From IMG/VR virus record IMGVR_UViG_3300023198_000555, positions 1 through 43,316 of that record: a stretch of DNA of 43,316 bases; one strand, given 5' to 3'. The position numbers and the translations under genes are program-made. The notes below the pieces were generated by a model. The model was not told the DNA's origin, ran no database searches, and saw nothing but the letters and a program-made list of their open reading frames with translations. Below, piece by piece: positions 29,708-43,316 of the stretch (positions are counted from its first letter, which is position 1; each line of letters opens with the position of its first letter). The stretch is from a virus.

Positions 29708-32700
29708 ATGGCTACAGCACCACAGATCAATCTCAGAGACGGTTCCGGGTCGTCCACGGAAGTCATCTATTCCACCAATCTGGAGTTCACCACGTTGGAG
29801 GGAACCGTCGATGCCACCACGGTCGATCTGCAAGTGTCGGTCAATGGTGGGGCCTTCGTCTCTGATCCGACTCTCGTGAAGTTGGATGTGCAGTCGTTCA
29901 TCGTCCCCAACCCGGACTCCCTGCCGTCCGGGCTCGCCTTGGACTTGGGGATCAACATCATCCAGCTTCGGGCTATCGGTATCTCGGGGGATGTGAGTCC
30001 CGCTTCGACGGCCACCATCACCCGTTTGGCCCTTAGCGATGACGAGAGCCTCATCCCCTCGGGCATTCGAGTGCGACGCCATCGGGACCGCATCGACATC
30101 ATTGCGGCCAAACCCGACCTGGAGGTTTCCGGCGGTCTCTCCCAGTCGAACGTGACGGCCCAGACGTTCCAGGGCTTCAACATGTACGCCTCGATCAATC
30201 CAGGCGGCACGACCGGCTACTACAAGATCAACGCTACCCTCATCACGACCGATGGCACGTTCGAGGAAGATACCAACGAGATCCAGGAGTACAGCACCGT
30301 TTTCGAGCCCCAGGCTGCCTTCATTCGCGTAATCGTGAGCCAAGAGGACGAGTTCGGAACCGAAGTTGCTCGCCAGATCGATGACTCGTTCAACGTCCTG
30401 GCTTTCTCCAACAACGTCCGGTTCACAGGCACTTTGGAGGACCGTACTCTGACCGAGTTCCTCTCGTTCACGCACGACCGAGCCGGGGGCGTCGGGATCA
30501 CCAACACCGAGCAGTTCTTCAACGTTCCCCTCACGGACCCCCTCTACTACGTGGTCACGGCCGTCTACTACGACACCGACCTCAACCAGGAGTTCGAGAC
30601 CCCTTACTCGCAAGAGGTTCTGGGGGCGCCTCTCATCATCGACACCAACATCACGGATCTGCCCGGTCGGACCCAGCTTCAGATCGTCACCAGTTTCGTG
30701 GATGCCGTGCAACGGGTGGACCAGGAGTTGAGCCTCGTCCCTGGTTCGACCACCCGGGACGTAAGCATCGACCCCTTCGCGAGCGAGGCCGAGCGTATCT
30801 GGTTCATCGTGGACTTCGTACATCGGAGCCAGTCGTTCGTCACGCTGCTCCAGATCGATGACACCAACCGAGACGGCGTATCGGACCTGGTGGCGGGGAG
30901 TGCCTACAAGCAGGCGCTCAGGGCGGCCCTCGGATACTCGACCGACTCGGCCGTCCAGCAACTCATCGACTCCCAGTTCGACAAGCTGGCCAAGAACTAC
31001 GAGAAGACTCGTCTGCCAGGGCGCCCGGCGGTGGGGGACGCCGTGTTCTACACCAGCACGCGGCCTACCGAGGACATCATCATCGCCTCGGGAACCACCG
31101 TCTCTACCGACCCTGATTTGGAAGCCGGTCTTGGGTCCGTCCAGTTCTCGGTGGGGGGCACTTACGTCATGCCCTCGGCTAACGCGGACGCCTTCTACAA
31201 CTTCGACACCCAGCGCTACGAGATCACCGTAGACATCACGGCCGCAAGCCTCGGCGAGGCCGGCAACCGGCCGGCAGGCACCATCAAGAACGTCGCGGGC
31301 TCAGCCGGTGGCCTCAGCGTCATCAACAACGAGTCCACGGTGTTCGGGACTGATCGAGAGTCCAACTCCGACCTGGCTGCCCGTGCCCAGCTTGGGTTCG
31401 TCAGTGTGGATGCTGGGACCGAGGGTGGCTACCAATCCACTTCCGCAGAGCAGGTCGGCATCATCAAGGCCAAGATCGTCAAGAGCGGCGACGCCCTGAT
31501 GATGCGGGACTGGGACGACGTTCGGAAGAAGCACATCGGCGGCAAGGTAGACATCTGGGTCCAGGGCCTCAAGGAGAGGACCGTCACCGAGAGCTTTGCC
31601 TTCACGTTCGAGGTCGCCCGGGACATTCGGTGCGACATCATCGACCTGCCCAACCTCATCTTCCGGGTCCAAGACTCCCGGGTCACCCCCGACACGCCCA
31701 TCGTCGAGATCCTGGACAACCCGGTACAGGGGTTGGGCGTGCGCAACGCCACGCTGGGAGAGGACTACGACCTGACCGGCGTGGTCATCCTGGACTACGA
31801 GACTTTCCAGATCAACACGGCCATCGCTCAACCTGTGACGGCCGTGGACGACGTGATTATCGCGGACTACCGCTACCGCTCGGTCAACCAGTTCACCTTC
31901 AGTCTCCAGCCCGTCCGGCGCGTCACGTCGGTCGTAGGCGAGGTTTCCGGTGCCCTGGACAACACCCTCGGGTACGACCTCTACCGCACGGACGACCCTC
32001 TCCTGAACGGAGAGAGCACCATCGCTGGAGACTACTTGGTCATCAACCAGGTGGGCGGGGTTCCTTCGGGGAACACCATCTCGGGCAACGACGAGGAACA
32101 CGTCCTCATCGGCTTCTTCAACGAGCCCCTGGGGAGTATCGGGATCAACACGGCGACCATCCGGGTGTTCGATGACACCCGGACCATCGAGTACAGCGGG
32201 CCGGATGCTACGGCTCCCGACTACGAGATCATCGAGGGGACGCCGACGACCCCTGCCAAGATCGTTCGCACCTCGTCCTCTCTGATCGTGTCCGGCCAGA
32301 CCGTCAGCGTGGACTACGACCACGACGAGAATTTCACCGTCCAGTACGTCGTCAACGACCTGCTCCAAGAGCTACAGCGGACCGTCAACAAGAAGCGGCA
32401 CACCACGGCCGACGTACTGGTCAAGCAGGCCATCGAGAACGAGGTCGCGGTTGAGACCACCATCCAACTCGACCAGGGAGCCACCAAGGACAAGACCGAC
32501 CCGGCCGTGCGGTCGAGTGTGTCCCTGGAACTGAACTCCAAGCTCATCGGGGCCGGGGTCGCCCAGTCAGACGTGATCAACGCCATCGACTCCACGGAAG
32601 GCGTGGACTTCCAAGTGCTGCCGCTGGCCCAGATGGGCTACGCGGACGCCTCCAAGCGCCTCCGAGAGACGGTTCTGAGCAGCTACGACCGGGTGGGGAG

Positions 32701-33163
32701 CCTCGATATTGGGGGCAACCTGGCCTACATCCTGACCAATGCCCTCCAGTACCCCACCACGGACGGCGGGGGCCTGGAGGTTGAGCACCGAGGGGTGTTC
32801 CAGGACGACGAGGCCATGCTGCTTTCGCCGGACCTGGCCAGCACGGCCCAGAACGACGCTCAGGCGTGGATCATCGGGTACGAGGGCGCGTCCATCACGG
32901 GCTACTCGGACGATGCCACGCTCATCAGTGAGGGGTTCACGGACCCCGAGGACATAGAAGCCGAGCGGCTGCGTAGAACCGCCAACCACGTCGTCTTGTC
33001 CATCACTGGTGGCGGGACTCCCGTGGACACCCCGGAGAACCATGCTTACGCCGCGAGCTATGTAGTGCGGAACGACATTGGACCGCACGACATCACTAGC
33101 TCGGCGGTCGAACACCTCTCCATGGGTGACTTCACCCTCACCTTCCGGGAGGCCACGAGCTAG
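29708..33163 (+). CDS. Baseplate J-like wedge protein (gpJ/gp6 type), 1151 aa
   Basis: This protein forms the baseplate wedge ring. Residues about 460-560 contain the family hallmarks: ASGTTVSTD, then GEAGNRPAGTI, then GGLSVINNESTVFGTDRESN followed by a charged helix. The N-terminal 430 residues are an extra beta-rich part, probably immunoglobulin-like domains (first domain about 5-115), plus a helical section before the core. DTNRDGVSD near residue 391 is a possible calcium loop. The C-terminal part (about 880-1151) includes a helical/strand wedge domain with long charged helices. P2 gpJ is about 300 aa and T4 gp6 about 660 aa, so this is an enlarged version. It lies between gp25-like and gpI-like genes. 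ATG 29708 follows the upstream stop after 6 bases. Confidence 0.88.
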   Translation: MATAPQINLRDGSGSSTEVIYSTNLEFTTLEGTVDATTVDLQVSVNGGAFVSDPTLVKLDVQSFIVPNPDSLPSGLALDLGINIIQLRAIGISGDVSPASTATITRLALSDDESLIPSGIRVRRHRDRIDIIAAKPDLEVSGGLSQSNVTAQTFQGFNMYASINPGGTTGYYKINATLITTDGTFEEDTNEIQEYSTVFEPQAAFIRVIVSQEDEFGTEVARQIDDSFNVLAFSNNVRFTGTLEDRTLTEFLSFTHDRAGGVGITNTEQFFNVPLTDPLYYVVTAVYYDTDLNQEFETPYSQEVLGAPLIIDTNITDLPGRTQLQIVTSFVDAVQRVDQELSLVPGSTTRDVSIDPFASEAERIWFIVDFVHRSQSFVTLLQIDDTNRDGVSDLVAGSAYKQALRAALGYSTDSAVQQLIDSQFDKLAKNYEKTRLPGRPAVGDAVFYTSTRPTEDIIIASGTTVSTDPDLEAGLGSVQFSVGGTYVMPSANADAFYNFDTQRYEITVDITAASLGEAGNRPAGTIKNVAGSAGGLSVINNESTVFGTDRESNSDLAARAQLGFVSVDAGTEGGYQSTSAEQVGIIKAKIVKSGDALMMRDWDDVRKKHIGGKVDIWVQGLKERTVTESFAFTFEVARDIRCDIIDLPNLIFRVQDSRVTPDTPIVEILDNPVQGLGVRNATLGEDYDLTGVVILDYETFQINTAIAQPVTAVDDVIIADYRYRSVNQFTFSLQPVRRVTSVVGEVSGALDNTLGYDLYRTDDPLLNGESTIAGDYLVINQVGGVPSGNTISGNDEEHVLIGFFNEPLGSIGINTATIRVFDDTRTIEYSGPDATAPDYEIIEGTPTTPAKIVRTSSSLIVSGQTVSVDYDHDENFTVQYVVNDLLQELQRTVNKKRHTTADVLVKQAIENEVAVETTIQLDQGATKDKTDPAVRSSVSLELNSKLIGAGVAQSDVINAIDSTEGVDFQVLPLAQMGYADASKRLRETVLSSYDRVGSLDIGGNLAYILTNALQYPTTDGGGLEVEHRGVFQDDEAMLLSPDLASTAQNDAQAWIIGYEGASITGYSDDATLISEGFTDPEDIEAERLRRTANHVVLSITGGGTPVDTPENHAYAASYVVRNDIGPHDITSSAVEHLSMGDFTLTFREATS

Positions 33164-33165
33164 CT

Positions 33166-33978
33166 ATGCCCCGCTTCATGTTCGACCCGAACCGGGTCAA
33201 CTACAACATCTGGAGGAAGGGCAAGGAGTACAACCTTCGGGTCCTCCAGCGGGCGCAGTCCATCTTCTCAACGCTCTTGGACCTGCTCCCGAGCAACTGG
33301 ATCAGCGGGGTTGAGGGACCGAGCTACACGCTGGAACTCAAGGCGGTGGCGGTCGAGTTGGCCAAGATCGAGCTAGCTCTAGAGGACGTGAACCGGGACA
33401 TCTCGTTCGAGACGACTCGCAGCGAGTTCTTGTACTCCATCGTCGGCTACCTGGTGTTCCTCAACGGCAAGATCCCCTCGCTGGAGTTTGACGACGAGGA
33501 ATTCCGGCGGTTCCTGCTGACCCTCATCCGCATCTACTTCCAGGGTTCGATTCCGGTGGCCCTCCGAGAAGCGGTGGACCTGTTCTTGAGCGAGGACTCG
33601 GAACTGCTGGAGAACTTCTTGCTGGTTCGGGCGGGGGCCTCGGGCCTCGACATCAGTGACCAGTTTGGTTTCCAGGTGACGGTGGACACAGGCGGCGTCT
33701 TTCCCGAGGACGCCTTCGCCCTCCAGTCCTCGCTCCAGACCGTCATGGACGTGATCCGGCCAGCCCACACGCTCTACCGGATTCGCTACCTGTTCACGGA
33801 CGAGTACATCCCCAACGGGGACGACATCAACCGAATCCTGGATGAGAGCCGGTGGCGGATGGCTTGCTACTACTACGAGGATTTTCGGGTCTTCTGCAAC
33901 GGGATCAAGGACCGGGACCGCTTGGGCCGGAAAATCAACCAGCCTGTGACCAGTGAGAGCCACAGCGATGACTTCTAA
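33166..33978 (+). CDS. gpI-like baseplate wedge/tail protein, 270 aa
   Basis: The position directly after baseplate J is that of P2 gpI and its relatives, which link the wedge to the tail fibers. The sequence fits: a helical N-terminal half with LLDLLPSNWI, and a C-terminal signature VIRPAHTLYRIRYLFTDEY around residues 197-215, which is characteristic of these proteins. The length of 270 aa is somewhat greater than P2 gpI. ATG 33166 is two bases after the J stop; the GGGAGG inside the J gene is 13 bases upstream. No domain beyond this was recognised. Confidence 0.78.
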   Translation: MPRFMFDPNRVNYNIWRKGKEYNLRVLQRAQSIFSTLLDLLPSNWISGVEGPSYTLELKAVAVELAKIELALEDVNRDISFETTRSEFLYSIVGYLVFLNGKIPSLEFDDEEFRRFLLTLIRIYFQGSIPVALREAVDLFLSEDSELLENFLLVRAGASGLDISDQFGFQVTVDTGGVFPEDAFALQSSLQTVMDVIRPAHTLYRIRYLFTDEYIPNGDDINRILDESRWRMACYYYEDFRVFCNGIKDRDRLGRKINQPVTSESHSDDF

Positions 33979-34003
33979 GGGTTTTATGGGTCTGCAAGAG
34001 AGC

Positions 34004-34008
34004 AGGAG
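34004..34008 (+). promoter_or_regulatory. Ribosome binding site that decides the tail-tip gene start
   Basis: AGGAG lies 7 bases before the ATG at 34016. It argues against the upstream in-frame ATGs at 33953 and 33968, which overlap the gpI-like gene and have no such site. Confidence 0.75.
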
Positions 34009-34015
34009 ACCAGAC

Positions 34016-34540
34016 ATGCTGACCAACCTCAAAGTCCGAGCCCGGGTGCGGGTTCACCAGGAGCGGCCCTACGCCTACGACAAGCGGAGTGGGCTCTGGA
34101 CCCGTTACGAGCAGGTCGGCAAGGATGAAGAAGCCGGCAACATCGTCACGGACGCTGGCCTGGTGGCCATCCACACGTACATCTACGGCACGCTGGGCCA
34201 ACGGACTGCGGGCGGCCTCAGCGGGACGGGGCTCAACTACATCGCTCTGTCGAACAGTGCAGCGGCTCCTGCCGCGAGCGACACCATCTTGGACGCAGAG
34301 CTTTCTGGGAACGGTTTGGACCGGGCCGCAGGAACCGTAACTCTGCCTACGGGGGCCGGCATCGCCACCGAGGTCGAGTACGCCTTCACGTACATAGGGG
34401 CCTCGGCGCAAGGCGTCCAAAAGACCGCTCTGTTCGACGACTCTGCTGCTGGGAAGATGGCTCACGAAATCCAGTTCACGCCGAGAACGCTCGTCACCAA
34501 CGACATTCTGACGCTCACTTTCACGATCACGCTTTCGTAA
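34016..34540 (+). CDS. Small tail-tip/fiber-adaptor-like structural protein, 174 aa
   Basis: The start is set at ATG 34016 by AGGAG 7 bases before. After a basic N-terminus (1-25), residues about 55-174 form a beta-sandwich-like pattern common in phage tail-tip and minor tail proteins: LNYIALSNSAAAPAASDT, a helix or turn with DAEL, strands through AFTYIG, then TALFDD, and a closing strand series DILTLTFTITLS. Its place between gpI and the fibers suggests an adaptor or small tip protein that carries an adhesin. The exact role is not known. Confidence 0.68.
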   Translation: MLTNLKVRARVRVHQERPYAYDKRSGLWTRYEQVGKDEEAGNIVTDAGLVAIHTYIYGTLGQRTAGGLSGTGLNYIALSNSAAAPAASDTILDAELSGNGLDRAAGTVTLPTGAGIATEVEYAFTYIGASAQGVQKTALFDDSAAGKMAHEIQFTPRTLVTNDILTLTFTITLS

Positions 34541-34549
34541 GGCTAGCCA

Positions 34550-37500
34550 ATGGCAGCAACAGCCCTCATCAAGTTCACGCAAGGCCCCAACACGGACATT
34601 GCCGGTCGAGCGGTTCTGGGGACCATTTTCAGCGTCGATGGTTCGGTGACGGTCACGAACGGCAGCCCCACCGACATCGACCGGTGGAAAATCTACCTGG
34701 TGAACGCCCCGCCGGGGAGCACTCTTGAACTGGTCACGCAGGGAATCTGGACGCTCCTGGATGAGGGCACCGACGACACGCCGACCACCACTTTCGATCC
34801 CGACATCACAGGGAGCTACCGCATCTTGCTCCAGGTGTGGGACATCTCGAATGCCCTGAATCAGGACATCCGCAACTTCATCGTCCCGGACGAGGGCGGC
34901 TTCGTCCTGGCTCCCTTCCAGAAGCTCCCGGACCCTCTCCCCCTCCCAGACCCCCTCGCTCCGAATCCTTCCCAGAAGGACAACGAGATGAACGTCGGCG
35001 GGCAGCCCTACGGGTGGATGGGCAAAGCCACGTCCAAGATGCTTCACCAGTTCACCAAGCACGTTGCCAAGCTGGTGAAGTCGCCCACTGGTGGAGACGC
35101 GGGGAAGGTGTCCGTCGCTACGGGGGTTGACGCAGTAACCTTCCAGTTGGTCACGAACGCCAACATCGACGCAGCGGCAGCTATCGCCGTGTCCAAGATC
35201 GCTGCTGGAAGCAGTGACGACGCTCTGTTGGAGTCTGGTGGAGCGGCGACCTGGGGGAAGATCGCGAACGCCAACATCGACGCAGCGGCAGCCATTGCCG
35301 TCACGAAGTTGGCTATCGGTTCAGCCAACCAAGTCCTGCGGATGGTGGGGACTGTTCCGGTTTGGGGTCTGGTCGCCGATGCCAACGTGGACGCAGCGGC
35401 AGCTATCGCCGTGTCCAAGTTGGCTGCTGGCACCAACACCTACGTCCTGACCACCACGGGGGGCGTGCCGGTCTGGGCAGCCCCGTCAGGTGGAGGTGGA
35501 GACCTCAACACTACTCTTGGGCTCGGAAATGACTCTGGCGGCCTGAACATTGTCATGTCGGCGTCCTCGGTCATCACAGCCCCCAATACCACAGGAGTAC
35601 CCACCCCCGTTGGCCTCCAAGGAGGCAACTCCACATCTTCTGGGAATGGTGGCGACGTAACTGTTCTCACCGGTACGGGCGCCGGCTCCAGTGGTCGAGG
35701 CGGCGACTTCACTGTCACTGGGGCTGATGGTGTAGGAGCTAGCTTTGGGACTGGTGGAGACGGCTCTTTCACTGGAGGTGACGGGGTTGGTTCCTTCGGC
35801 TCTGGTGGAAGTTACAGTATCACTGGTGGTGACTCTGCCGCTTGGTCGGGGGGCGGCATCTCTTTCGATGGGGGTAGTGCCGTCTCAAGTAGCGGTGGCG
35901 GCCTTACCGCGTATGGAGGTTGGAGCGACAACGGCTCAGGAGGCTCCCTTACCTGGGAAGCAGGATCCTCAGACTTCGGGGCCGGGGGCACCGTCGAAAT
36001 CACGGGGGGGACTTGCTACGAGACCGGGGATGGCGGCGAGATCATCCTCGACGCTGGCTACGGCTACGGTGGTACGGGAGCCGGCAATGGCGGCTTCATT
36101 CGGATCAACACCGGAGAGGGCAAGACTGCCGGTGACATTGGCCACCTGTGGTTGATGATTGGCTGGAATACTGTCGTTGACTTAGGCCCCGCTACCTACA
36201 CCAGCCTGGTTGCCCTGTGGGGGGCTGGCGCGTCGGCGGACGGTTGGGTTCTCTCCTACGACTGGAGTAGCGGCGAGACCCAGTGGCGGGTCCCCAGCGA
36301 TCCCAACGCCATCCACGACAACGTATCGGACGAGATCCATCAGGTTGCTTTGAAGGGATCTCCGGCAGGAGCCGACGAGGTTCTAATCGAAGACAGTGCT
36401 GCGACGTGGGCCAAGAAACGGGTGCCCGTCAGTGCTCTCGGTGGAGGGCCTGCTCGAATCGGGTACGGGGCTGAGACAGGTATCCAGCGCAGGCAACTCC
36501 TGGCTCCTGGATCGTCTGCGCAACGAACTCCCTTCCGAGTTTTGAAGTCTGGCAATTACAGCACTTCGGACGACCCTGTTAGCGGCCCAATTGTAGCTGG
36601 GGACAAGGTGTACTGCTGCCTACAGCAAGGGGGCGGGAGCAACTTCGGCAGCATCGTCTCGATGTCCTTGGCAGGCTACTGGGGCACCAACGGCATCGTA
36701 GACCGCTACGATTTTCCGGCGCTAGCAGACCCGAGAGACTTGGTGTTCGACGGGTACATGATCTGGTCTGCCAACTACGACGCGGATACCGTCACGAAGC
36801 ATCACCCTGGTTCGGCACTCGCCCTTCAAAATACTGTTTCGGTAGGGAACCTGCCTAGCTTCTTGATGTTTGACGGGGAAAACGTCATCGCCCTGTGCCA
36901 GTCGTCTGTCTACAAGATCGATCCTTCCGACACAGCAACGTCCTTGTCTGGTTTGGGAAGTACGCTCTGGGGAGCAGTGTTCGACGGGCAGTACGTCTGG
37001 GTCGTGGACTTCACCAACAGCAACATTCGCAAGATCGACACGCTGAGTGCGGGTGCCCCTACTCTAGTGTCCACCATTGGGTCGGGAGAGGGTCTGCCCA
37101 GCCGGGCCTTCAATGCGGCCTTCGACGGGTCCTACATTTGGGTCGCTCACGATCAGTCCAGCACGAGCCCCAACGCAGTGTCTCGCATCGACGTTCTGAC
37201 GGAGGCTGTCGAGACCTTCACCATCGGGACCGTGAGTGGCATGAACCTGGACGGCCAGATTGCTTTCGACGGCCGATACCTCTGGGTTGAGTTGGAGGTG
37301 TCCGCTGGTTCCAGCACCTTCTGTGTGGTTGATCCTACGACAGGAAACCGCATTGGCGAACCGGTCTCCGGTGCCACTTATCGTGACGCCCCCCAGAAGG
37401 CAGATTGGGAAGTGATTGACGAAGGGGTGCTTCTTTGGGCCGGAGTCGATAGTCTGGGCATGATATGTCGTAGCTACGGGTCTTCCGTTCACGCTCCGAC

Positions 37501-37843
37501 TTTAGTGGCCACTCCGGGAGGCCAGGTTCTAACAGGTCAAGCTACAAATGTTGCTCTGAGCGACGGCCAGACCTACTTCATGGGCACGGGCGGCGGTAGT
37601 TCCAGCGACACCGGAGGCAAGGAAATCATCCGGTTCTCTGGAACTCTTACCGTGACCACTACGATTCGTCTGACGGACGGCAACTCTCGCATCATCCACA
37701 ACGACACAAACAACACCCTCACTATCGCTAACACCAGTGGCACTGGGACCAAGACCCTGGCGGCCAACACCATCGCCATTGCCTACGTGGACCTCTACAC
37801 GGGAGGCCAGCCGGTACGGTTCGCTTCCGAGCACGCGGAGTAG
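34550..37843 (+). CDS. Tail fiber with beta-solenoid and beta-propeller sections, 1097 aa
   Basis: Probable receptor-binding fiber. The N-terminal 1-112 is a PKD/Ig-like anchor domain (FDPDITGSYRILLQVWD), followed by a proline hinge LPDPLPLPDPLAP and a GGQPYGW motif. Residues 203-310 carry three 37-residue shaft repeats starting N/D-A-N-I/V-DAAAAIAV. Residues 367-526 form ten glycine-rich rungs starting GG, with alternating hydrophobics (for example GGDVTVLTG, GGSYSITGG), a likely beta-solenoid. Residues 681-975 contain seven blade-like repeats with FDGxYIWV, a probable beta-propeller. The last 100 residues are beta-rich. The anchor recurs at the start of the gene at 42778. No pectate lyase or other enzyme motif is seen. 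The start is ATG 34550 with TAAGG 7 bases upstream. The domain assignments are pattern-based. Confidence 0.82.
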   Translation: MAATALIKFTQGPNTDIAGRAVLGTIFSVDGSVTVTNGSPTDIDRWKIYLVNAPPGSTLELVTQGIWTLLDEGTDDTPTTTFDPDITGSYRILLQVWDISNALNQDIRNFIVPDEGGFVLAPFQKLPDPLPLPDPLAPNPSQKDNEMNVGGQPYGWMGKATSKMLHQFTKHVAKLVKSPTGGDAGKVSVATGVDAVTFQLVTNANIDAAAAIAVSKIAAGSSDDALLESGGAATWGKIANANIDAAAAIAVTKLAIGSANQVLRMVGTVPVWGLVADANVDAAAAIAVSKLAAGTNTYVLTTTGGVPVWAAPSGGGGDLNTTLGLGNDSGGLNIVMSASSVITAPNTTGVPTPVGLQGGNSTSSGNGGDVTVLTGTGAGSSGRGGDFTVTGADGVGASFGTGGDGSFTGGDGVGSFGSGGSYSITGGDSAAWSGGGISFDGGSAVSSSGGGLTAYGGWSDNGSGGSLTWEAGSSDFGAGGTVEITGGTCYETGDGGEIILDAGYGYGGTGAGNGGFIRINTGEGKTAGDIGHLWLMIGWNTVVDLGPATYTSLVALWGAGASADGWVLSYDWSSGETQWRVPSDPNAIHDNVSDEIHQVALKGSPAGADEVLIEDSAATWAKKRVPVSALGGGPARIGYGAETGIQRRQLLAPGSSAQRTPFRVLKSGNYSTSDDPVSGPIVAGDKVYCCLQQGGGSNFGSIVSMSLAGYWGTNGIVDRYDFPALADPRDLVFDGYMIWSANYDADTVTKHHPGSALALQNTVSVGNLPSFLMFDGENVIALCQSSVYKIDPSDTATSLSGLGSTLWGAVFDGQYVWVVDFTNSNIRKIDTLSAGAPTLVSTIGSGEGLPSRAFNAAFDGSYIWVAHDQSSTSPNAVSRIDVLTEAVETFTIGTVSGMNLDGQIAFDGRYLWVELEVSAGSSTFCVVDPTTGNRIGEPVSGATYRDAPQKADWEVIDEGVLLWAGVDSLGMICRSYGSSVHAPTLVATPGGQVLTGQATNVALSDGQTYFMGTGGGSSSDTGGKEIIRFSGTLTVTTTIRLTDGNSRIIHNDTNNTLTIANTSGTGTKTLAANTIAIAYVDLYTGGQPVRFASEHAE
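35156..35419 (+). repeat. Three 111-base direct repeats in the fiber shaft
   Basis: Near-identical units begin at 35156, 35267 and 35378, exactly 111 bases (37 codons) apart. Each has the core AACATCGACGCAGCGGCAGC or a close variant, encoding NANIDAAAAIAVSK or similar. Intact reading frame and high DNA identity suggest recent amplification. Confidence 0.9.
35648..36127 (+). repeat. Ten glycine-rich rungs, predicted beta-solenoid
   Basis: Residues 367-526 contain ten consecutive units of 15-19 residues. Each starts with GG, then two alternating hydrophobic positions, and then usually another glycine pair. Alternating hydrophobics favour a beta-solenoid over the polyglycine-II sandwich known from some phage adhesins, but both are possible. 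Confidence 0.7.
36590..37474 (+). repeat. Seven blade-like repeats, predicted beta-propeller
   Basis: Seven units span residues 681-975. Their cores are GDKVYCC, FDGYMIWSA, FDGENVIAL, FDGQYVWVV, FDGSYIWVA, FDGRYLWVE and DEGVLLWAG. Each is followed by a turn and a KID/RID/VDP strand in most copies. The pattern is that of NHL/YVTN-type beta-propellers. Confidence 0.72.
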
Positions 37844-37846
37844 TGG

Positions 37847-40800
37847 ATGGCAGATACCGGCGGCGGATTTGGCTACGGTGCCTGGGGCTACTCGCCCTAC
37901 GGAGGCACTCCTGCGCTCGTAGGCGAGAGCTACAGCGATAGCCTTGCCGAGACCCTCATCCTAGACGAGGACTTGAACGTCCAGCTTGGGGCTATCGAGA
38001 TCGAGATCACCGAAGGCCAGAACATCTCGGCCACGTTGCCAGTTGCTCTCAGGTTCGACCAGATCCAGAACTTTCAACGGTACGCCCTGACGCTGCTGCG
38101 CGAGGGGGATGGCGTCCTTCCAACCATCCAGAGGATTGCCCCCACCTACACCGTGCTAGCTAGCGGGACGGCAGGCGAGACGGTGGATGCGGGAGACTTG
38201 TACGTCACTCGTGAGTTGTCTCTGGACGATTTCGTCGATTCGAGTTGGGTCAACAACTACATCGAAATCTCGAACGGACCCAACGCCGGTCGTTACCGGA
38301 TCGTCTCGGTGTTGGTGACCGGCCCACCTGGCGTGGTGGTGGTGGAACGAGACCTAGTGTTGTCGGACTCGACCAGCGGTTCGATGGTTTGGGAAATCAC
38401 CACGGCCGTCACGGGGGTATCTCTCGTGGTCTCCAAGGCCACGGAAGGCAGTTCCCTCCAGTTGGCCTTGTCTGGTCTCTGGATGGCCAACGGCCAGCCC
38501 TTCAACAGCTACGGCACATTCGAGGCGGCGGTCGTGCCCAGCCCTCGGGTCTTTGAGGCCACGGCTCAGGACAACGGAGTCCTCCTGGTCGAGTTCAACG
38601 AGCCCATGCGGTCTGAGAACGACCTGGTGGACCCAGCGGACTACAGCATCACGGGGCCAACGACCGTTCGAGTCAAGCGAGCGTGGGCGGTGGATGACGC
38701 CACGGTCGCGCTGGAGACGGTGGGCCTGACTTCGGGGAGCTACACGTTGGAAGTCAACGCCAGCGGCACCCCCAAGGACATCGCCGGCAACCCCATCGAC
38801 CCCCTTTTCAACCAGGCGATCTTCACCTCGTCGCCGCCGCTGACGACTCGTAGCATCTTCACGGACAAGGGGCCCATCACCAAGCCAGTCGAGACGTTGG
38901 ACTCTGGGATCAACGCCGTGCTGGAGACCGAGACCGAAGCGACCTTGCCGGGGGCCACGCTCACGAGCAGCTACGTTGGCAAGGAAGTGACCCTCTCTGG
39001 GGGCGCTATCAACGGGGGCACCTTCCTCGTTACGGCCGTCGTGTCGAGCACGCGGGTTCGGCTCAAGGCCAGCTTCACGCTCCCGGACCCGGCCAGTGGG
39101 AGTTTGGCCTGGGCCCTCATCGACTCCCACCACGGTGAGATCGCCGACGACCCGGCCGATGTGACGGTCCGGGTCAACGCGGCTCCGGTCACCCCAGCGG
39201 CCGTCATCGGGCTTCAAGGCCAGATCGTGCTCAACGCCGCACCTGGACCGACCGACGACGTGGAGATCGACTACTCGCACATCTGCAACCCTGTCGTCGA
39301 GATCCGCCGGCTCAACTCCAAGGAGTTCCGGCTCAACGCCTGGAATCGAGACCGGGGCTACGTCCCTGATGGGAGCCAGCACAAGTACCGCTACAACAAC
39401 ATTCTGGTCAGCCCCTCGGACTACGACCCTGACGACATGCAAGCCTCGCTCGACCAGCCCTGGCTGCGGGAGTTGCACTACCGAGCCTACGAGCGGGCCT
39501 ACACGCCAGTCCTGAACGAACCCAACCTCCTGCTGCTCAACACGCCGATCCACCGGATTGCCTACCCGCCGGCCTCTCGTACCCTGGTCGAGGAATTCGT
39601 CCGGTACGAGGCGCTGGTCTTGCCTGAGAACCACCTGTCCTATCCTTGGGTCCGGCACGGGACGGGGATCGCTTCCGTGGCCGCTGGCATCCTGACAGTC
39701 CAGGACGCCTCCAGCGGGGAGTTCCCGACAGGGCAGCCGGTGTTCTGGACTCGGGAAGTTGACCTGACCTTCCCTCACGTCTTTGCGTCCTCGTGGCGGT
39801 TCACCTTGACTGCTGTGACAGAGCCCGAGGGGGTGTTCACGGGTGTCGCCTCGGGCTTCTCCGATGAGCTTGTCTCCGTCGTAGTTGGGTTCCTGGAGGA
39901 CGGGGGCGTCAAGAAGATCGGGCTGCTCAAGCGAGGGGCGACGGACCCTGGGGACATCGACTCCTGGGCAGGAGGTCTCGACTCATCCGGCAACCCCACG
40001 GGCCTGCCAGCCGAGTTCGACTGGTCCACGCTGCACACCTATCGGCTGTTCCGGGACCAGACGGGGACGGTCAAGACCTACGTCGATGGGGATGTCATCG
40101 AGACCCTGCGCCTGACGGTCGTTGACCTACCCTTCCTGGCCGACGTGCCCTCCCCCTTCGACACCTTGCAGGGGGCGTTCTTCGGGTCCATCTCCAGGCC
40201 CGCCAGGAACACGTCAGAGTGGGACTTCGTGGGCTACCTGGTGTCGCCGACGAGCCCCCAGCAAACGGCTCCTAGCTCGTTCGTGAGCTACGAGGCCAAC
40301 GTGCTGCCCGAGAACGACGCACGCCCCTGGACCCCGGTGGGCTACCACGGCACGAGCACCATCCTGGGGACCGACTTCCTGCTCCTGGAGTCCACGAGCG
40401 CCACGGACGCAGCCGCATCTTCTGAGGCCGGTCTGGTGGGCGGCGACTTCAAGGGCTACCTCCGAATGGAGCCGTTGCTGTCCTCGGCCTCCGAGTTCTC
40501 TGTGGACGCCAAGGTGGCCTTGTTCACCATGACGCATGGGCCCGACCCCCACGGCCTCATGCTGGCTGTGGATGACGGGTCCAAGGTCGTCCAACTGTCT
40601 CTCGTAACGGATGTGGCGACGCCTCTCATGAGCTACGGAGGGCGAGCCTTCCCAGAGGACTTCACTCCCTACATCTGGACGGCCATGGGAGGCCAGACCG
40701 CCGAGATGCTGGGTCGGATTCTCCGCATCACGGACGCTTCGGCAACCGACGGCTTGGTCTACTACACCCAGGACACCGCCCCGAGTGCGTCTGACGACAG

Positions 40801-42739
40801 GGTGGTCAGTTCCACCCTCGACTACATCCTGGAAGCCCGGCTCAAGGTTGATTCCTACACGGTCGATGGGTCGGGGTTCGCGGGCGCCTTCGGGCAGGTT
40901 TTCGAGGACCTTCGTTCGGTTGGGTTCATGCTCACCGAGGACACCGGGACGAAGTACATCGCTTTCCACTCGGATGGGGTGCCGCTCGGCCCGACTGCCC
41001 GCTGGGCTTTCAACTGGGGTGACGGGGCCTTCCACACCTACCGCTTGCGCAAGAGCGTGAGTGGCAACGTCGTGACCTTGACCGTTGACGGAGTAGCCGT
41101 TGGGTCAGCGCCGTACACCGACTTCGCTTCCCCAGGAGCAGATCCAATCGGGATCCTCTCCTTTGGGTCTAGCACCCCAGCGAGTTCGGCTGCCGAGTCG
41201 GTGGTGGACTGGTCCTACTGCAACGCCTTCCGAGTCCCCACCACTCAGAAGCGCTACGTGGGGCTCTGGAAGGGGCCCAGGACAGGCACCCTGGCGGACT
41301 ACCACCTGGCCCTGAAAGTCGATGGGAAGGGCGCTCAGGTATCCGCAGCCAACAAGATCATCGACAACTCGGTCAACTTCGTCGCTTTGGGGGTGGTGAG
41401 CGGCGATCCGGTGATCATTGACGACGGGACCAACCAAGGCGTCTACAAGATTGGCACCGTGGGGGCCAACTTCATCACGTTGGACGCCCTCTCTCCCACC
41501 TTCCCGGTCTTTCCGACCCTGGTGGACTACCGCATCCCCGAGGAAACCGACTGGAGCGTCGAGCACAAGTACCGCATCCTTCGGGACACCACCGGCCAGG
41601 TTTCAGTCTTGCTGGATGCCGTGGCGGCACCCCTCATCCAGGCGGACTACAACTCACTCAACTTCCCCTCTCGGAGCGACTCGCTCACGAGCATCGTGTC
41701 CGGGGGCGTCCCGGCCATGGTCTTTGGGTCGTTCAGCCCCGAGCACCTGGAGCAGTCCTACTGGGACTACGTTCGCTACGGCATCACCCTGGCTCCCCAG
41801 GAGCAGCGGATCGTCCCGCACCACCAGGTCATCAACCAGTGGAACGTCATGTCGAGCCCGGAGCGGCTTCGCACGACGCTCCCTCACGAACTGACCGACT
41901 TCAAGAGCAGTTCGACCGGCATTGTCCCCAAGAAGGACCCAGACTTCCTGGCCGACCCAGGGCTCGCCGCGTACACGCAACTCAACGAGGACACCGCTCT
42001 GGTGCCCCTCACGCAGACGTTCGAGACGCAGGCTCCGTACCCCACCCAGGAGTTCGTCTCGGGCTTGAACCGCCCCGAGGACGTGCTCAACAGCGATGGC
42101 GACTTCGTGCTCAACGACGGGGCGATCCGGTACAGGCTCATCGTCCCCGACGACATCCTCTACAGCAGCCTGGACGTGATCGAGCAGACCTCGGGAAGGG
42201 TGTCTCTGATCAAGCCGGTCTGCGACGGGTGCCAGCCGAACATCTCGGGGCTCAACTACACGGATAACGTCTGCCTCCCCTACGAGGGGGACGTGCTGCC
42301 CGAGGACGACACCTCGGCCCCGACGCCCTGGGCCTTGGTCAGCGACAACCCAGCCGAGGTCCAAGCCTCGGTCCTGGCAGGGATTCTGACCTACGGCACG
42401 ACCCCGACTGGGACCAAGACGGTCTACCGCAACGACAGCCCGTTGCCGGACGCCCCCGGGCTCCAGTCGGAGGCCACCTTCCGGATCAAGCTGCTCAACG
42501 ACGCCACTGGTGGAACCGGGGATTCCCAGGTGCGTTTCGGCATGTCGGCCCCGGGGCTGACTGTAGCCCTCGCCTTCATCACGGAGGCCACAGGCGAGCG
42601 CCGGGTCGTCGTATTCGATCTGAACTCGGGAATGCCCGTGGGGGCTACCACTTTCGATTTCCTCGATGGGTCCTTCCACACCTACCGCATCGTCCGCGAC
42701 CCGTCAGCCTCCGAAGTCCGCATCTTCATTGATAGTTAG
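37847..42739 (+). CDS. Multi-domain adhesin with lectin-like modules, 1630 aa
   Basis: Probable second receptor-binding or baseplate-decorating protein. It starts with GYGAWGYSPYGG, a motif seen at the N-terminus of many tail proteins. Domains in order: family B module (105-185); Ig-like domain of the SbsA/Big type (about 233-328, with VLLVEFNEPM and LEVNASGTPKDIAGNPI); a second family B module (357-425); an arginine-rich beta section (475-580); then LamG/concanavalin-like modules at 587-797, 815-925, 930-1130, 1134-1312 and 1479-1630. The modules begin with YExxVLPEN-like motifs and should end with HTYRxxRD, VDG and WDxVxY strands. Some copies lack one half. A third family B module (1163-1231) lies inside the fourth. 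The last module stops at VRIFIDS, without its closing strands. GGAG at 37837 supports the ATG 37847 start. Carbohydrate binding is inferred. Confidence 0.8.
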   Translation: MADTGGGFGYGAWGYSPYGGTPALVGESYSDSLAETLILDEDLNVQLGAIEIEITEGQNISATLPVALRFDQIQNFQRYALTLLREGDGVLPTIQRIAPTYTVLASGTAGETVDAGDLYVTRELSLDDFVDSSWVNNYIEISNGPNAGRYRIVSVLVTGPPGVVVVERDLVLSDSTSGSMVWEITTAVTGVSLVVSKATEGSSLQLALSGLWMANGQPFNSYGTFEAAVVPSPRVFEATAQDNGVLLVEFNEPMRSENDLVDPADYSITGPTTVRVKRAWAVDDATVALETVGLTSGSYTLEVNASGTPKDIAGNPIDPLFNQAIFTSSPPLTTRSIFTDKGPITKPVETLDSGINAVLETETEATLPGATLTSSYVGKEVTLSGGAINGGTFLVTAVVSSTRVRLKASFTLPDPASGSLAWALIDSHHGEIADDPADVTVRVNAAPVTPAAVIGLQGQIVLNAAPGPTDDVEIDYSHICNPVVEIRRLNSKEFRLNAWNRDRGYVPDGSQHKYRYNNILVSPSDYDPDDMQASLDQPWLRELHYRAYERAYTPVLNEPNLLLLNTPIHRIAYPPASRTLVEEFVRYEALVLPENHLSYPWVRHGTGIASVAAGILTVQDASSGEFPTGQPVFWTREVDLTFPHVFASSWRFTLTAVTEPEGVFTGVASGFSDELVSVVVGFLEDGGVKKIGLLKRGATDPGDIDSWAGGLDSSGNPTGLPAEFDWSTLHTYRLFRDQTGTVKTYVDGDVIETLRLTVVDLPFLADVPSPFDTLQGAFFGSISRPARNTSEWDFVGYLVSPTSPQQTAPSSFVSYEANVLPENDARPWTPVGYHGTSTILGTDFLLLESTSATDAAASSEAGLVGGDFKGYLRMEPLLSSASEFSVDAKVALFTMTHGPDPHGLMLAVDDGSKVVQLSLVTDVATPLMSYGGRAFPEDFTPYIWTAMGGQTAEMLGRILRITDASATDGLVYYTQDTAPSASDDRVVSSTLDYILEARLKVDSYTVDGSGFAGAFGQVFEDLRSVGFMLTEDTGTKYIAFHSDGVPLGPTARWAFNWGDGAFHTYRLRKSVSGNVVTLTVDGVAVGSAPYTDFASPGADPIGILSFGSSTPASSAAESVVDWSYCNAFRVPTTQKRYVGLWKGPRTGTLADYHLALKVDGKGAQVSAANKIIDNSVNFVALGVVSGDPVIIDDGTNQGVYKIGTVGANFITLDALSPTFPVFPTLVDYRIPEETDWSVEHKYRILRDTTGQVSVLLDAVAAPLIQADYNSLNFPSRSDSLTSIVSGGVPAMVFGSFSPEHLEQSYWDYVRYGITLAPQEQRIVPHHQVINQWNVMSSPERLRTTLPHELTDFKSSSTGIVPKKDPDFLADPGLAAYTQLNEDTALVPLTQTFETQAPYPTQEFVSGLNRPEDVLNSDGDFVLNDGAIRYRLIVPDDILYSSLDVIEQTSGRVSLIKPVCDGCQPNISGLNYTDNVCLPYEGDVLPEDDTSAPTPWALVSDNPAEVQASVLAGILTYGTTPTGTKTVYRNDSPLPDAPGLQSEATFRIKLLNDATGGTGDSQVRFGMSAPGLTVALAFITEATGERRVVVFDLNSGMPVGATTFDFLDGSFHTYRIVRDPSASEVRIFIDS
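38159..38401 (+). repeat. Family B beta-module, copy 1 in the 1630-aa protein
   Basis: Residues 105-185 share the layout of the modules in the 1974-aa protein: DFVDSSW, then YIEISNGPNAGRYRIVSV, then a strand with VVVERDLVL, then MVWEI. Confidence 0.5.
38915..39121 (+). repeat. Family B beta-module, copy 2 in the 1630-aa protein
   Basis: Residues 357-425 show the layout TLTSSYVGKEVTL, then NGGTFLVTAVVSSTRVRL, then LAWALID. It is consistent with the family B pattern, with GTF in place of GVY. Confidence 0.45.
39590..42739 (+). repeat. Array of lectin-like (LamG-type) modules and half-modules
   Basis: Start motifs YEALVLPEN, YEANVLPEN, YGGRAFPED and YEGDVLPED occur at residues 587, 815, 930 and 1479. 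End motifs with HTYR or HKYR, then a VDG/LDA turn and W-D-x-x-x-Y/F, occur near 730-797, 1063-1130 and 1240-1312. Starts and ends do not match one to one, so some copies are halves. Confidence 0.6.
41333..41539 (+). repeat. Family B beta-module, copy 3, inserted in a lectin-like module
   Basis: Residues 1163-1231 have the layout SGDPVIID, then NQGVYKIGTVGANFITLD, then VDYRIPE. It interrupts a lectin-like module between DYHLALKVDG and EHKYRILRD. Confidence 0.55.
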
Positions 42740-42757
42740 GCGTAGGTAGAACGCCTA
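42737..42757 (+). repeat. Small hairpin at the end of the 1630-aa gene
   Basis: TAGGCG (42737-42742, which includes the stop codon) pairs with CGCCTA (42752-42757) around a 9-base loop. No U-run follows, so a terminator is not supported. It lies at a suspected recombination point and may be a scar or an mRNA element. Confidence 0.4.
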
Positions 42758-42777
42758 TCCGAAGCGGGAGTCCGTAG

Positions 42778-43316
42778 ATGGCTGCTGTCGCACTGATCAA
42801 ATTTACCCAAGGGGCTACCATCGGTAATGACGGGGAAGCCCTCGTCGTCAACGACGGCGCCTCGGTCACCATCGAGAACGCGAACAACACCGATGTAGCC
42901 GCCTGGGCCATCGACTTGGTTGAAGCCCCAGCGGGCAGCGTTCTCCACACCGACCCGGGGGTTTGGACCCCGCTCGGGGCTGCTGCCACCAGCACCCCCT
43001 CAGCCAACTTCATCCCCGACGCGGCGTTGGCGGGAACCTACCGCATCCGGCTGGAGGTCGAGGACGGCTCAGCGGTCAAGAACGTGGACATCCGCAACGT
43101 CTGCGTCCTGACGGACAACAGGGCCATGGTCTTGTTTCCGTACATGGAGCTACCGCAACCCCTACCGGTGGTGGACCCGGCGAGCCCCCAGATCAACCAG
43201 AAGCCCGACGAGTTGAACTTCGGCGGCCAGAAGTTGGGTTGGTCTGGCGGCGCGGGCGGCTCCCCTCTGCTGCTCAACGATACTCTGGCTGCCTTCGACC
43301 TGATGCAGCCGACCAC
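42778..43316 (+). CDS. Second tail fiber, N-terminal anchor (partial, runs off window)
   Basis: The reading frame is open from ATG 42778 to the window end (179 codons, no stop). The protein begins MAAVALIKFTQG, like the 34550 fiber (MAATALIKFTQG), and continues with the same PKD/Ig-like domain (FIPDAALAGTYRIRLEVED), DIRN, a proline hinge LPQPLPVVDPASPQ, and NFGGQKLGW. It is therefore a paralogous fiber anchored at the same kind of site. DNA identity at the start is low at synonymous positions, so the duplication is old or the copies were acquired separately. The distal part, which would show its receptor module, lies beyond the window. Confidence 0.85.
   Translation, partial: MAAVALIKFTQGATIGNDGEALVVNDGASVTIENANNTDVAAWAIDLVEAPAGSVLHTDPGVWTPLGAAATSTPSANFIPDAALAGTYRIRLEVEDGSAVKNVDIRNVCVLTDNRAMVLFPYMELPQPLPVVDPASPQINQKPDELNFGGQKLGWSGGAGGSPLLLNDTLAAFDLMQPT

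Follow-up and report, generated by a model that had tools for sequence, protein, structure and literature searches.

Organization of the baseplate locus

The window, by which we mean the whole 43,316-b stretch of DNA analysed here, is an entire virus record and contains a baseplate locus in which the genes for a baseplate J-like protein and a tail protein I-like protein are followed by a small gp80-like gene, a fiber gene (A), a gene for a protein of 1630 aa and the start of a second fiber gene (B), 179 codons into which the record ends (Table 1). The two fiber genes flank the 1630-aa open reading frame, as a sequence-only reading of this DNA had described. The C-terminal 907 residues of the 1630-aa protein matched 22 loci, which together with the window represent 18 distinct records; all compared genomes are metagenomic. 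In nearly all 18 records, the gene order is J, I, slot 1, 1630-aa protein, slot 2 and two further conserved genes, the slots being the places where A and B lie in the window.

Table 1. Features of the baseplate locus in the window
Feature	Position	Strand	Remarks
Baseplate J-like protein, 1151 aa, locus core	29708..33163	+	Pfam Baseplate_J, E 8e-13, over cut-off
Tail protein I-like baseplate protein, 270 aa	33166..33978	+	86% identical to G001, dN/dS 0.07
Small gp80-like virion protein opening slot 1, 195 aa as listed	33953..34540	+	PF23140 sub-threshold
Slot-1 anchored fiber A	34550..37843	+	1097 aa
Head (anchor) of A, residues 1-161	34550..35032	+	PKD-like sandwich, Pro linker, GWxG
Gly-rich shaft of A, residues ~321-560	35510..36229	+	GC3 0.61 vs head 0.82
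Tip region of A, residues ~640-1009	36467..37576	+	FDGxYxW repeats, propeller-like; G008 fiber B has a homologous tip
Conserved baseplate-linked protein, 1630 aa ('adhesin' of the sequence-only reading)	37847..42739	+	18 distinct records including the window
Gly-Tyr/Trp N-terminal leader (MADTGGGFGYGAWGYSPYGG)	37847..37906	+	similar leaders in relatives
Predicted concanavalin-A-like lectin domain, model residues 200-409 of 907	40613..41242	+	AF2, VIA-align
Slot-2 anchored fiber B, first 179 codons	42778..43314	+	open, no stop, exits contig end
Head (anchor) of B, residues 1-159	42778..43254	+	AF2 model, sandwich = residues 1-112

The 437,331-b record G001 has the same order as the window, with an A orthologue of 2581 aa, a homologue of the 1630-aa protein that spans the end join of the record and a B orthologue of 729 aa; its exact 127-b end repeat fits a circular, complete genome. 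Fibers with homologous N-terminal heads and unlike bodies within a baseplate operon, as in the window, are found intact in G001 and also in G008, a more distant phage. Among named phages, the nearest match to baseplate J came from LR745208.1, a 485-kb uncultured phage (36% identity over 98%), and the closest isolate by the same protein is Tunturi_5, a phage of Acidobacteriota (PMC11924767; 30% over 38%), which is too distant to warrant a host assignment. A scan of the bacterial and archaeal genome collection returned no relative of the head and, consequently, neither a prophage nor a host link.

Gene B is probably intact. Its 179 codons in the window run without a stop or frameshift, with a GC3 of 0.82 that resembles its neighbours, and the B orthologue at L003:2753-4942 is an intact gene of 729 aa, 77% identical to window B and separated from it by a dN/dS of 0.12; the body of B is judged through this relative only, the window stopping at codon 179. 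The cut at the end of the record leaves room for B being a broken remnant in the window phage, a pseudogene fragment of the kind that the sequence-only reading had considered, but the open codons, the composition and the low dN/dS render this explanation hardly credible.

The true start of the gp80-like gene is probably near 34010. Its product scored 23.7 bits against PF23140, the GP4 gp80 fiber family, below the 27-bit cut-off; such a gene lies in the equivalent position in 10 relatives, and PF23140 matches few records. We rejected the gp80-like protein as an obligatory socket for the fibers, given that it is missing where G016, G017 and G018 carry their anchored fibers. One record, L065 (IMGVR_UViG_3300031576_000001), has a rearranged locus, with an I-like gene and a 1630-aa homologue among genes on both strands and no baseplate J found upstream; an alternative genetic code was considered for it and dropped, its genes being located on both strands.

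A common head at the N-termini of both fibers

When B was compared with A by BLASTP, residues 1-160 of A and 1-159 of B were identical at 71 of 163 positions (44%; E 5e-23), and the Smith-Waterman score was 318, compared with a maximum of 55 in 2000 shuffles. The similarity ends at about residue 160. The motifs from which homology of the two N-termini had been proposed are all there, namely, ALIKFTQG, GSYRILLQV/GTYRIRLEV, DIRN, LPDPLPLPDP/LPQPLPVVDP, QK and GGQPYGW/GGQKLGW, and the alignment bears that proposal out. At the DNA level, A and B share only short matching patches, the best being 34 nt at 82%; thus, the copies are old, and a recent tandem duplication or an assembly artefact is ruled out.

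The head consists of a PKD-like beta-sandwich, a linker, and a GWxG motif with a short helix. In the AF2 model, residues 1-112 form a confident beta-sandwich (pLDDT ~90) and the helix spans residues 166-175, with the proline linker at lower confidence. The best fold matches are of the PKD and FnIII type, with the PKD domains of ColG and AAVR at Z 8.0-8.2 (rmsd 2.1-2.3, 81-90 residues aligned); the predicted fold thus falls in the PKD/FnIII-type class of two-sheet sandwiches, within which other sandwiches score near and descent is a separate matter. The K319L-like_PKD family of Pfam was hit sub-threshold in 5 of 16 head members (best E 0.0014), no member exceeding the cut-off and neither window A nor B matching a PKD sequence model. 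The description of the head as PKD-like made from the letters agrees with these results. The fold is generic, however, and a Z of ~8 cannot tell an anchor from an accessory domain; no tailspike assembly folds, such as the T4 baseplate-like (XD) domains of a CBA120/RaK2-type complex, stood among the matches listed, which does not exclude their presence.

Searches by profile and by pattern recovered the head from 22 distinct records of uncultured phages, near-identical duplicates not being counted. In nearly all of these, it begins no more than a few residues from the initiation codon, and the bodies behind it are mostly unrelated, comprising shafts of repeats, propeller-like tips and small domains at the C-terminus. 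No family in Pfam or PHROGs matched the head above the cut-off, nor did any of 50,697 phage records searched by tblastn with two single-sequence queries, so that head-bearing fibers currently go unannotated. A profile search did not find the head in LR745208.1 or Tunturi_5, the two nearest named phages, and a sequence search of the PDB gave nothing credible. In the head-bearing phages of 185-190 kb, the head gene lies close behind a gene for a protein of ~1350 aa that was Baseplate_J-like above the cut-off in one of the five tested and sub-threshold in another. The anchored protein at L004:9938-12229 has a hydrophobic, signal-peptide-like extension ahead of the head, which may reflect the choice of start codon.

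A second head type ('ATIQITQG'; type 2, the heads of A and B being type 1) shows the sandwich pattern, ends in the GWxG-helix as well and lacks the long proline stretch. Hence, the constant exit of the head is the GWxG-helix rather than the proline hinge, which had been proposed as a common feature of the fibers and is present in both window genes but does not extend to type 2. A type 2 head, the third and a divergent one in that genome, also occurs in G001, 372 kb into the record and away from the locus.

History of the heads

The A-type heads, that is, those in slot 1 of the window, G001 and G017, group with the only head of G007 in one clade (support 97/94), within which the A orthologues are joined at 100/97, and the B heads of the window and G001 pair at 100/99. 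Monophyly of the type 1 heads in slot 2 was rejected (AU p 1e-5), whereas a sister relationship of the A and B heads was not favoured and not rejected (AU p 0.075). A history with one head lineage per slot is ruled out, types 1 and 2 each being found in both slots. The term 'duplicated', as the pair of fibers had been called, is not supported as it stands: the heads are old, separately inherited lineages, and the AU test does not favour a common origin within the lineage. Duplication within a phage may be one of the possible origins of the two heads.

Two slots with optional occupants

Slot 1 is filled in 7 of the 18 records, with type 1 heads in the window, G001 and G017 and type 2 heads in G008, G018, G023 and G026. 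Slot 2 is likewise filled in seven, with type 1 in the window, G001, G008 and G016, type 2 in G022 and G030, and a weak, divergent head in G017. At the locus itself, some of the records being fragments, both slots are filled in four records, one slot in six and neither in eight. Mapped on the tree of the 1630-aa protein, occupancy changed at least five times in slot 1 and at least twice in slot 2, and the both-slots state sits within one supported clade of five records (100/99); no significant link between the occupancy of the two slots was detected among the 18 records (Fisher p 0.33). In the two slots that flank the 1630-aa protein, anchored fibers are optional, and they look like parts for host recognition that can be interchanged. 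ORFs for probable homing endonucleases (NUMOD3 over the cut-off, GIY-YIG sub-threshold) lie in slot 1 of G022 (L068:4557-5438) and G030 (L081:669-1553), just ahead of the 1630-aa homologue, and could help to move slot contents.

The sequence-only reading had the two fibers compete for, or share, one baseplate socket. Finding each head type in both slots agrees with a socket that is shared or equivalent; two distinct sockets would equally fit two head lineages that have long been separate. In the latter case, A would dock beside protein I and B on the 1630-aa protein by specialized heads that do not compete. The A gene indeed lies behind the genes for I and the gp80-like protein, the B gene adjoins that for the 1630-aa protein, and the slot-1 type 1 heads form a single clade with the lone head of G007. 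Nonetheless, with both head types in both slots and with the slot-2 heads polyphyletic, the slot does not dictate the head lineage, and we regard two specialized sockets as possible, if somewhat improbable. Alternatively, one fiber could dock on the baseplate and the other could join that fiber through its PKD-like head, as in the branched multi-spike complexes that are established in CBA120 and have been proposed in RaK2 (PMC10253068). Such an arrangement is quite unlikely, however: the anchored fiber is alone in 6 of the 18 records and in most of the smaller head-bearing phages, which carry one such fiber only, and so docking of a head cannot depend on a second fiber of its own kind.

Conserved heads and exchanged bodies

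Comparison of the window with G001 gave a dN/dS of 0.085 both for head A and for baseplate J, and of 0.12 for head B: purifying selection acts on the heads, whose evolution resembles that of the baseplate core, and the bodies behind them turn over. This pattern bears on whether the head anchors the fiber at all. A generic PKD/Ig-like accessory module that aids weak surface adhesion would have precedents in the PKD/Ig folds found mid-protein in the receptor-binding proteins of Deep-Blue and Vp4 (PMC11406892) and in capsid decoration proteins to which Sf14 gp20 has been compared (PMC11821841). The head, by contrast, is terminal, present in a single copy, followed by the conserved GWxG-helix and conserved like the baseplate while the bodies vary, all of which makes an accessory role decidedly improbable and favours an anchor.

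The A bodies of the window and G001 are 49% identical for 75 residues past the head and then unrelated, bar one short repeat unit. The shaft of G001 fiber A (L018:10001-17746, 2581 aa) is built of ~20 near-identical repeats of ~98 aa, of which the window orthologue has one related short unit. GC3 falls from 0.82 in the head of window A to 0.61-0.76 in its body; the drop is weaker in other fibers and opposite in G008_A, and the difference is only suggestive of a foreign origin of the bodies. Homology between the Gly-rich shafts of window A and G001 B was weak (E 0.001; score 190, shuffled maximum 136) and was not relied on.

Residues 583-1009 of window A, which include a tip region with no Pfam match above the cut-off, are homologous to part of G008 fiber B (29% identity, E 2e-26), so that homologous tips occupy opposite slots in the two phages, slot 1 in the window and slot 2 in G008. 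A C-terminal domain of ~100 aa is common to G001_A and G008_A (43-46%), which bear heads of type 1 and type 2, respectively. Judging from these similarities, tip domains move between fibers. In G016, a free-standing YncE-like beta-propeller gene (L062:14918-15889; Lactonase, E 4e-13) immediately follows the slot-2 anchored fiber and recalls the propeller-like tip of window fiber A.

The conserved protein between the fibers

Homologues of the 1630-aa protein occur in phages of up to 452 kb, and in LR745208.1 a single protein of 1763 aa combines an I-like domain with a 1630-aa homologue; the protein is therefore baseplate-linked and the stable element of the locus. It had been read as a third adhesin; its conservation and its fusion to I in LR745208.1 do not support placing it on the same footing as the two fibers. 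No Pfam or PHROG family was detected in it, and the lectin domain (residues 922-1131) is recognized by its fold alone: in an AF2 model built on an 18-row alignment, this block is predicted with a pLDDT of ~79-93, other parts of the protein being poorly predicted, and VIA-align matched it to concanavalin-A-like domains with Z 20.3 (rmsd 2.3, 178 residues aligned). The predicted domain may bind sugars, as such a fold would suggest, and a surface-binding role of the protein is accordingly still plausible.

A GYGxxPYGG-like Gly-Tyr/Trp leader starts many virion proteins of the clade, including, besides the 1630-aa protein of the window, those at L003:4957, L016:2944, L039:9512, L064:7531 and 11698, L076:6292 and others. 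Among the 1630-aa homologues, the leader is present in 6 of 7 with an anchored fiber in slot 1 and in none of 11 without (Fisher p 0.0004); this association was seen before it was tested, includes three independent pairs only (p 0.25) and is treated as a lead. It raises the rather doubtful idea that slot 1 is a two-part cassette of anchored fiber and Gly-Tyr leader, the leader becoming the start of the lectin protein. Where a fiber has been inserted between the lectin protein and protein I, which are fused in LR745208.1, the leader would re-dock the separated lectin protein on the baseplate. If so, the cassette would let huge phages gain fibers and yet keep the core lectin.

Discussion

Phage host range is set by tail fibers, and to our knowledge the rules by which these attach in uncultured huge phages are mostly unknown. 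Taken together, our results make it likely that A and B are modular receptor-binding fibers, docked by a common head in two slots, whose bodies and tips are exchanged. The N-terminal head of each fiber would dock on the baseplate of a huge phage with a contractile tail, placing the common-head fibers at the baseplate edge around the conserved lectin-type protein; the bodies and tips behind the head would be swapped, and each phage would thereby display its own combination of recognition tips beside the baseplate-borne lectin. A multi-fiber recognition array is well supported; physical docking, trimers, receptor binding and an effect of the fibers on host range are inferred.

Components of this arrangement have counterparts in known systems. 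In the I/H tail module of P2-type phages, the fiber gene directly follows that for tail protein I. The window locus likewise places a fiber gene after protein I, but it has two slots with a lectin-type protein between them, and no gpH-type N-terminal family was matched. The tailspikes TSP1-4 of CBA120 (Ackermannviridae) form a branched multi-spike complex via conserved N-terminal domains, and the same has been proposed for the Alcyoneusvirus phages RaK2 and phiK64-1 (PMC10253068). These myoviruses resemble the phages described here in having several receptor-binding proteins whose N-terminal assembly domains are conserved and whose bodies vary and are swapped by recombination. In CBA120 and RaK2, however, one spike anchors to the baseplate and the others join through domains resembling T4 baseplate proteins, whereas the window heads are PKD-like, are each predicted to anchor their own fiber and flank a lectin-type baseplate protein. 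Gp119 of Vp4, a baseplate wedge protein with carbohydrate-binding modules, has been shown to bind cells (PMC11406892) and is similarly a baseplate protein with sugar-binding-type folds beside fibers; the 1630-aa protein differs from it in belonging to no Pfam or PHROG family, in its ConA-like domain and in its fusion to I in LR745208.1. In the literature considered, mostly titles and abstracts, we saw no description of the head family, of the arrangement in two slots or of a lectin linked to protein I, which provides limited evidence that the three are new.

The head sequence provides a handle for finding such fibers, and with the two-slot map it can be tested whether different fibers can occupy equivalent sites of one baseplate. 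The conserved lectin-type protein, in turn, suggests a common first-contact step to which optional fibers are added.
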